NCBI RefSeq assembly: GCF_001592435.1 | Contig: NZ_CP014750.1 | Coordinates: 620,001 to 684,000, forward strand | DNA length: 64,000 bases | From: Thermococcus peptonophilus | GTDB taxonomy: Archaea > Methanobacteriota_B > Thermococci > Thermococcales > Thermococcaceae | Direction: 5' to 3' | Shown here: in pieces, positions 2,267 through 33,813 of the stretch | How positions within the stretch are numbered: the stretch's first letter is position 1 | Layout of the letters: each line of letters starts with the position of its first letter | Notes under the pieces: generated by a model | The model's database searches: none | Seen by the model: only the letters and a program-made list of their open reading frames with translations | What the model was told of the DNA's origin: nothing | Made by a program: the position numbers and the translations under genes

Positions 2267-2290
2267 GTTTCAAACGATAGGTTTATAATT
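2267..2290 (+). promoter_or_regulatory. Promoter of the proline-symporter operon with SurR-type motif
   Basis: GTTTCAAACGATAGGTT at 2267-2283 fits GTTn3AACn5GTT, the published consensus of the Thermococcales redox regulator SurR. It abuts the TATA box TTTATAATT (2282-2290), so the expected transcript start is near 2310. A factor bound here would touch the BRE/TATA region. The motif match is seen directly; SurR binding is inference. Confidence 0.55.
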
Positions 2291-4148: not shown

Positions 4149-4163
4149 TCGTCTCTTTTTAAC
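4149..4163 (+). terminator. T-rich stretch after putP
   Basis: CTCGTCTCTTTTTAA follows the putP stop codon. Thermococcales transcription commonly ends at T-runs without a hairpin, so this may terminate the symporter transcript before the PDH1 promoter 20 bases further on. Only base composition supports it. Confidence 0.35.
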
Positions 4164-4168
4164 TTTCG

Positions 4169-4192
4169 GTTCACAACCTTAGGGTTTATAAG
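4169..4192 (+). promoter_or_regulatory. Promoter of the PDH1 operon
   Basis: TATA box GTTTATAAG at 4184-4192, predicting a transcript start near 4213, 26 bases before the ATG. A GTTCACAAC half-site (GTTn3AAC) at 4169-4177 lies just upstream; the third GTT of the SurR consensus is off by one base in spacing. The 5' leader contains CCGC and GCGG flanking ATGTACA, a heptamer also present in the putP leader. Confidence 0.5.
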
Positions 4193-31111: not shown

Positions 31112-33432
<2,321 letters not shown>

Positions 33433-33475: not shown

Positions 33476-33526
33476 GTTCACAACGTTGAGTGCTTATAAA
33501 TCTGTTGTTAACCAAAGGTTTGGAAC
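33476..33526 (-). promoter_or_regulatory. nfn promoter with SurR-type motifs
   Basis: TATA box on the minus strand is GATTTATAAGC (33492-33502), transcript start near 33472. Upstream of it, GTTCCAAACCTTTGGTT (minus strand, 33510-33526) fits the SurR consensus GTTn3AACn5GTT exactly. A second half-site GTTGTGAAC (33476-33484) lies at the transcript start, with GAT in place of the third GTT. An upstream site plus a start-site element suggests activation and repression by one factor. Confidence 0.55.
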
Positions 33527-33606
33527 GGCGAAGGTTTTTCAGCCCGACCTTAGAAGAGTGGAAGAAATGTTTTTAATTGACCATGAGAAGTGAGCCGGGG
33601 ATTGCT

Positions 33607-33813
33607 ATGAAGAGGGTTGCCTACACTTTCGCAGTAATAATGGCCGCCTTCGGCATGTTCCTTCCGCTGATCTACGGGGCAGTGCCGGTCATCCAGAGGC
33701 TCCTGGGTGAGAACCCGCTCCTGAAATCGCTTGGGATATCGATTATCTTCTGGGTTCTGGCGTACGTTCTGTTCGAGGAAGAAGAAAAGGGTGCCGACTT
33801 CACAGCTTCCTGA
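33607..33813 (+). CDS. Small two-helix membrane protein
   Basis: A 68-residue protein with two membrane helices (VAYTFAVIMAAFGMFLPLIYG and SLGISIIFWVLAYVLF) and an acidic tail (EEEEKGADF). No family recognised. ATG 33607 is favoured since a TATA-like TTTTTAATT at 33569-33577 puts the transcript start near 33597; the in-frame ATG at 33583 would precede it. No strong ribosome binding site. Its stop lies inside the convergent TrmI gene (14-base overlap). Confidence 0.6.
   Translation: MKRVAYTFAVIMAAFGMFLPLIYGAVPVIQRLLGENPLLKSLGISIIFWVLAYVLFEEEEKGADFTAS

Follow-up and report, generated by a model that had tools for sequence, protein, structure and literature searches.

The promoter of the xfn (nfnII, FNOR1) operon of Thermococcus peptonophilus is probably a SurR operator-promoter, repressed in the absence of sulfur through two sites, called B and C below, and derepressed in its presence. 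It carries three exact SurR-type sites, in a register kept across the order Thermococcales; the operon encodes the NfnII/Xfn paralogue, and the genome holds a surR gene with a CxxC switch. SurR binding and repression are inferred from these features; that B and C act in concert is deduced from reports on the orthologue. Positions refer to the window, i.e. the whole stretch of 64,000 nucleotides that was analysed; papers cited by PMC number are quoted from excerpts.

The xfn operon, its promoter and SurR

The relevant features of the window are the following.

31112-32560, minus strand: nfnL (xfnL), encoding the large subunit and overlapping the stop of nfnS; TIGR01316, 698 bits
32557-33432, minus strand: nfnS (xfnS), encoding the small subunit of NfnII/Xfn, a ferredoxin:NADP oxidoreductase; ATG start; NF004862, 337 bits
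33430-33472, minus strand: leader conserved in orthologues, extending to the start codon of nfnS; may hold a second control element
33476-33484, minus strand: site C, GTTGTGAAC, exact GTTn3AAC; downstream of the TATA box, ahead of the predicted transcription start
33494-33500, minus strand: TATA box TTTATAA, between B and C; same place in 81/81 orthologues
33504-33512, minus strand: site B, GTTAACAAC, exact GTTn3AAC; 3 bases from TTTATAA, its start 14 bp ahead of TATAA
33518-33526, minus strand: site A, GTTCCAAAC, exact GTTn3AAC; its start 28 bp ahead of TATAA; left half in 22/81 orthologues
33504-33520, plus strand: long SurR motif GTTGTTAACCAAAGGTT (GTTn3AACn5GTT), the order-conserved form; central AACn5GTT in 75/81 orthologues

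Among solved structures, the best match of the small subunit is 5vj7_B (476 bits, vs. 224 bits for 5jca_S, P. furiosus NfnI), and that of the large subunit 5vj7_A (838 bits, vs. 755 for 5jca_L). The 5vj7 entry, whose molecules are named ferredoxin-NADP reductase and oxidoreductase, is taken here to be Xfn of P. furiosus. One further Nfn-like small subunit, 35% identical, is encoded in the genome (C1:1286487) and is here called NfnIII; the operon of the window is nearer to Xfn than to either NfnI or NfnIII. The orthologue of the small subunit in T. kodakarensis is 97% identical. In the genome of this relative, presumably that of strain KOD1, surR is found at 954,255, the orthologue at 1,170,962-1,171,834 and NfnIII at 1,478,850. 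Since T. kodakarensis surR is TK1086 (PMC4247193), dividing the distances from it by the difference in gene numbers yields 906.6 bp with the orthologue taken as TK1326, and 877 bp with NfnIII taken as TK1685, by which the window gene is assigned to FNOR1 (TK1326/TK1325) and NfnIII to FNOR2. In T. kodakarensis, FNOR1 (TK1325-1326) is described as more abundant with sulfur, and FNOR2 (TK1684-1685) as more abundant without it (PMC12016516); in P. furiosus, sulfur is described as raising the expression of nfnII and lowering that of nfnI (PMC6405883).

Sites A and B together form the full double palindrome GTTn3AACn5GTTn3AAC, and the promoter contains, in all, three short sites and two overlapping long motifs (33504-33520, plus strand, and 33510-33526, minus strand), every one of them exact. 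The sites follow a 14-bp register, with A and B separated by 14 bp and B and C by 28 bp, the vacant slot being occupied by the TATA box. Site B should overlap the BRE. If, as a rule of thumb, the transcription start is taken to lie 26 bp from the centre of the TATA box, site C would be placed at about -13 to -5.

The preliminary description of this DNA had reported an exact SurR-type motif and a half-site at the start site. Both sequences are located exactly at 33510-33526 and 33476-33484 (minus strand), and the former is a genuine long motif; the latter is a complete short motif rather than a half-site, and is predicted to lie just upstream of the start. Site A and the left half of B had been recognized, as had site C, but the third exact site, B, had been overlooked. 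To describe Nfn as balancing ferredoxin and NAD(P)H, as was done there, is imprecise for this paralogue, as P. furiosus NfnII is said, in the excerpt of PMC6405883, to be without NAD-dependent activity.

A small divergent frame (33577-33813, plus strand, 78 aa, hydrophobic by eye) lies about 144 bp from nfnS and gave no match in a Pfam search; sites A and B could act on it too.

The motif is enriched both in the window and in the genome. GTTn3AAC occurs 21 times in the window, whereas shuffled sequences contain 12.25 copies on average and attain 21 in 2 of 100 cases. For the 17-base long motif, one mismatch being allowed, the count is 28 vs. 10.73 in shuffled sequences, and none of 100 shuffles attains 28. 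Genome-wide, over the two strands, the exact long motif is found 51 times and its reversed pattern 5 times; full double palindromes, each counted once, number 6 vs. 0 for the reversed control. Close pairs, in which two sites are separated by at most 30 bases, number 14 vs. 8 in the control; among these 14 the 28-bp spacing is seen at the xfn promoter only, and the idea of a general 28-bp spacing of SurR sites was rejected. Two other exact long motifs were observed in the window: GTTGTGAACCGAAAGTT at 4161-4177 (minus strand), its core 18 bp ahead of TATAA, upstream of a gene (L160) whose N-terminal part matches the 2Fe-2S domain PF13510, and GTTTCAAACGATAGGTT at 2267-2283 (plus strand, locus L159).

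The surR gene is located at C1:1798006-1798713, head to head with pdo. Its product carries the N-terminal switch C24-T-E-C27, numbered from the ATG of MSEPD, a start chosen inside a 239-aa frame; cysteines at 24 and 27 are also given for SurR in PMC12162507. The best match among solved structures is PF0095 (2qlz, E 4e-97), and a SurR relative is present in 92 of the 94 Thermococcales genomes. According to the excerpt of PMC12162507, SurR activates its own gene and those of hydrogen metabolism, and acts as an activator upstream of the TATA box and as a repressor downstream of it; in some cases repression needs an upstream and a downstream site, for which Hidese 2017 is cited there. The same source gives no direct support for xfn control, since T. 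barophilus nfn and xfn are described as hardly altered by pressure and the available part of its Table 2 has no nfn promoter among the entries.

Site conservation and geometry in the NfnII and NfnIII promoters

From 94 Thermococcales genomes, 81 full NfnII promoters were obtained and compared, leaving 13 genomes without one (G003, G035, G045, G052, G063, G064, G073, G078, G082, G083, G085, G088 and G091). Site B matches at 5 or more of its 6 defined positions in all 81 promoters and is exact in 43, site C at 5 or more in 74 and exact in 60, and site A at 5 or more in 47 and exact in 22. The right half of B is AAC in 43 of the NfnII promoters, and differs by one base in the remaining ones. Because B is kept in 81/81, and the left half of A is found in 22/81, the conserved long motif is the one reading on the plus strand (33504-33520). 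When the motif was slid over 140 offsets in the 81 promoters, exact sites were found at three of them only, the A, B and C slots; the anchor was picked to maximise A, B, C and TATA together, and the register is somewhat favoured by it, but this choice does not account for the absence of exact sites at the other offsets. On the protein tree, at least 8 state changes are required for A, 9 for B and 12 for C.

Two further relations between sites were tried and dropped. Exact A and exact B are negatively associated, as alternatives would be (6/16/37/22, Fisher p 0.006), but independent tree pairs gave a median p of 1. For covariation between B and C at their inner bases, 3.2 pairs changed the same way vs. 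0.0, too few to be of use, and the rank by mutual information was 65th.

Two of the genomes without a full promoter, G073 and G078, are 99% complete and hold no NfnII-level match (best E 1.4e-11 and 1.4e-46). NfnII genes are said to occur in all sequenced Thermococcales (PMC6405883, excerpt).

A different arrangement was found in the 20 NfnIII promoters retrieved, a sample of the existing ones. An exact A-type site starts 28 bp ahead of TATAA in 20/20, the right half of B reads AAC in 0/20, and a site within 75 bases downstream of TATA is present in 18/20; two (L106 and L108) carry an extra GTTataAAC overlapping the TATA box. NfnII and NfnIII promoters differ in this respect, since the latter have A exact throughout and are devoid of the TATA-side half of B. 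The distances suggest one fixed hinge, AACn5GTT, common to both paralogues: the repressed one has it extended to a full site next to TATA, the activated one on the opposite flank. In the xfn promoter of the window, with the A core 28 bp and the B core 14 bp ahead of TATAA, both flanks are complete.

The same upstream distance recurs elsewhere in the genome. The core lies 29 bp ahead of the TATA element in the surR promoter, and 28 bp ahead of it at L139, a thioredoxin-like 2Fe-2S ferredoxin gene (PF01257). In nine other promoters, hand-picked from those with SurR motifs in this genome, among which SurR activation is known by report only, the distance from core to TATAA/TTAAA is 26-29 bp in seven, 32 bp in L176 and 18 bp in L160; for L184 it is either 15 or 28 bp.

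The xfn promoter of the window has both an exact site predicted to lie over the BRE, beside the TATA box, and an exact site downstream of TATA, which is the FNOR1-type layout. The FNOR2-type layout, an upstream site at about 28 bp with none over the BRE, is matched by the distance of A, but B is exact as well. Order-wide SurR control of xfn with a rigid 14-bp geometry is supported by the comparison, and the half-site that distinguishes the repressed (NfnII) from the activated (NfnIII) layout provides a rule, simple and testable, by which SurR repression and activation could be predicted.

The conserved leader

Between site C and the nfnS start codon, the leader (minus strand) is composed as follows.

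33468-33463: TGTCCA, followed by four variable bases
33458-33453: TGGTCT, followed by TGTACG
33445-33439: Shine-Dalgarno sequence GGAGGTG, followed by TTCAT

The 81 leaders, anchored on the Shine-Dalgarno sequence, share nearly invariant letters: TGnnCA is present in 76, TGnnC ten bases further on in 78, and both in 74; TGnAC and GGAGGTGTTCAT follow. The distance from site C to this Shine-Dalgarno-anchored unit is 39 in 48 leaders, 41 in 26, 40 in 6 and 42 in 1 and, as it varies, the unit belongs with the leader and not with site C. The pattern TGNNCAN4TGNNCN3TGNNC has six matches in the genome, four of them within coding frames; the remaining two are those in the leaders of NfnII and NfnIII.

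A first model (R1) was built on 31 leaders, namely 26 of 29 diverse NfnII leaders (L033, L194 and L230 were left out, being out of register) and five of the eight NfnIII leaders fitting the pattern among nine looked at. Among the matches listed, at E up to 0.1, it is found in at least 85 of the 94 genomes, with at least two matches in T. peptonophilus itself. Fifteen further matches were inspected, of which 11 precede NfnIII and 4 (E 7e-5 to 0.014) do not; the NfnIII matches are partly obtained by construction, since NfnIII leaders are part of the model. A second model (R2), based on NfnII leaders alone, found 4 of the 9 NfnIII leaders and matched 0/20 NfnI and 0/7 other loci.

The strict three-part pattern fits 13 of 20 NfnIII leaders. 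In six of the 20 (L255, L260, L262, L263, L106 and L108) a perfect palindrome, TGAACA-n4-TGTTCA, is placed at the predicted start, and resembles an operator covering it. In 43 of the 94 genomes this palindrome is present (0 for the reversed control); of 30 loci inspected, 8 precede NfnIII, the others preceding a DUF354 gene, an SRP54 gene (N-terminal pieces) or nothing clear. T. peptonophilus has two exact copies (C1:390480 and C1:446198), neither at nfn genes, and its own NfnIII leader, TGAACATATCTGATCA, is an imperfect palindrome.

Several other explanations of the leader were tried and rejected. As to RNA structure, the z-score is +0.5 for the window and -1.2, -2.5 and -2.0 for three relatives, so that two of four beat most shuffles, with no common fold; an Rfam search of the leader returned one weak match, far below the cut-off. 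A dyad was discarded because perfect complementarity at both variable base pairs is limited to 16/81 leaders, and selection on a leader peptide because the three codon positions hold about 1.2, 1.0 and 1.2 bits, with no coding pattern. An ATG opens the leader in 76/81, and in all 76 its frame passes the nfnS start; the leader may contain a short translated frame.

It is tentatively proposed, at somewhat less than even confidence, that a second control element, perhaps undescribed, is common to the leaders of the two SurR-controlled Thermococcaceae paralogues, NfnII and NfnIII, and located directly at the transcription start (TGnnCA-n4-TGnnC, at a fixed Shine-Dalgarno distance in NfnII and sharpened to TGAACA-n4-TGTTCA in some NfnIII), bound by a second regulator that would perhaps sense the NADP(H)/ferredoxin state and be combined with the sulfur signal of SurR. 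If the element is real, the NADPH supply of these archaea would have a second input besides sulfur.

Sign of control and comparison with known systems

Control of the operon by the redox regulator SurR, as proposed in the preliminary description, is well supported by the sites, their register, the conservation across the order, the SurR gene with its CxxC and the literature on orthologues. Without sulfur, reduced SurR would occupy site B, over the BRE and beside the TATA box, and site C, in the gap between TATA and start; in T. peptonophilus the adjoining exact site A would assist its binding. The B- and C-bound molecules would together exclude TBP/TFB and RNA polymerase from the xfn promoter. 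Elemental sulfur would oxidise the C24xxC27 switch, upon which SurR would be released and xfn expressed. Joint repression through B and C in the absence of sulfur is likely, because the gene is the orthologue of FNOR1, reported to be more abundant with sulfur. Site A may also contribute some activation in T. peptonophilus, judging from its activator-type distance of 28 bp to TATAA, as in NfnIII promoters, and close to the 29 bp of surR.

Alternatively, SurR bound upstream may activate the operon and SurR bound to the start-site copy may block it, as the preliminary description had suggested. Site A, exact and at the NfnIII distance from TATAA, speaks for such a model, as do its exact preservation in 22/81 orthologues, across at least 8 state changes on the tree, and the description of FNOR2 as SurR-activated (PMC12401011, excerpt). 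We nevertheless consider it unlikely, since the conserved site is B, expected to lie over the BRE and kept at 5 or more of 6 positions in 81/81; NfnIII promoters, with A exact in 20/20, are without the TATA-side half of B, and T. kodakarensis FNOR1, 97% identical, is listed at higher abundance in the presence of sulfur (PMC12016516, excerpt) and has one mismatch in its site A. Activation upstream with blocking at the start is the layout of FNOR2/NfnIII, and is not reported for NfnII/Xfn, i.e. FNOR1, in the sources consulted.

Control of xfn mainly by a second regulator acting at the leader, with SurR in a secondary role, would fit the conservation of the leader, which is close to that of site C (about 1.2 bits per column in the 24 columns that precede the Shine-Dalgarno sequence, vs. 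1.21), and its occurrence in both NfnII and NfnIII. It is nonetheless very improbable, as no regulator was found for this element, its conservation could in part reflect the context of the translation start, and the leader of the window, with its z-score of +0.5, has no RNA fold. That the sites are chance or decayed matches, devoid of function, is scarcely credible: the motif is indeed short, with about 12 of the 21 window copies expected by chance, and close pairs just reach 14 vs. 8, but the double palindrome occurs 6 times vs. 0, and the 81 orthologues preserve the register, exact sites being confined to 3 of 140 offsets. SurR repression through B and C is thus retained, and the xfn promoter of T. 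peptonophilus is best read as a further example of the published FNOR1/Xfn-type SurR-repressed promoter.

The closest known system is the FNOR1 (TK1326-TK1325) promoter of T. kodakarensis, in which B and C have the same sequence and spacing as in the window; site A has one mismatch there, whereas it is exact in T. peptonophilus. This promoter, with an upstream and a downstream site, is reportedly repressed by SurR (Hidese et al. 2017, Extremophiles 21:903), and the abstract of that work is said to state that repression of FNOR1 needs both sites and that FNOR2 is activated from the upstream one.

For T. piezophilus NfnII/Xfn, the table excerpted from PMC8595942 places short motifs at distances of 44 and 72 bp, counted from the start codon, exactly as for C and B here and, unlike in T. 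peptonophilus, gives no third upstream site. The 72-bp distance alone is not specific to NfnII, since T. piezophilus NfnI, another paralogue, has a long motif at 72 bp (same excerpt). 'Nfn' is named there as being under negative control by SurR, in a sentence covering Nfn as a whole and not each paralogue.

FNOR2/NfnIII (L102/L173 in T. peptonophilus; n=20) resembles xfn in the upstream site 28 bp from TATA and in the TGnnCA leader (strict pattern in 13/20), and differs from it in the absence of the right half of B (0/20) and in being described as SurR-activated (PMC12401011, excerpt). The SurR regulon of P. furiosus (Lipscomb 2009, 2017, as cited in the excerpts of PMC8595942 and PMC12162507) relies on the same GTTn3AAC / GTTn3AACn5GTT motif, SurR activating from sites upstream of TATA and repressing from those downstream of it, and the xfn promoter shows no difference in kind from it.
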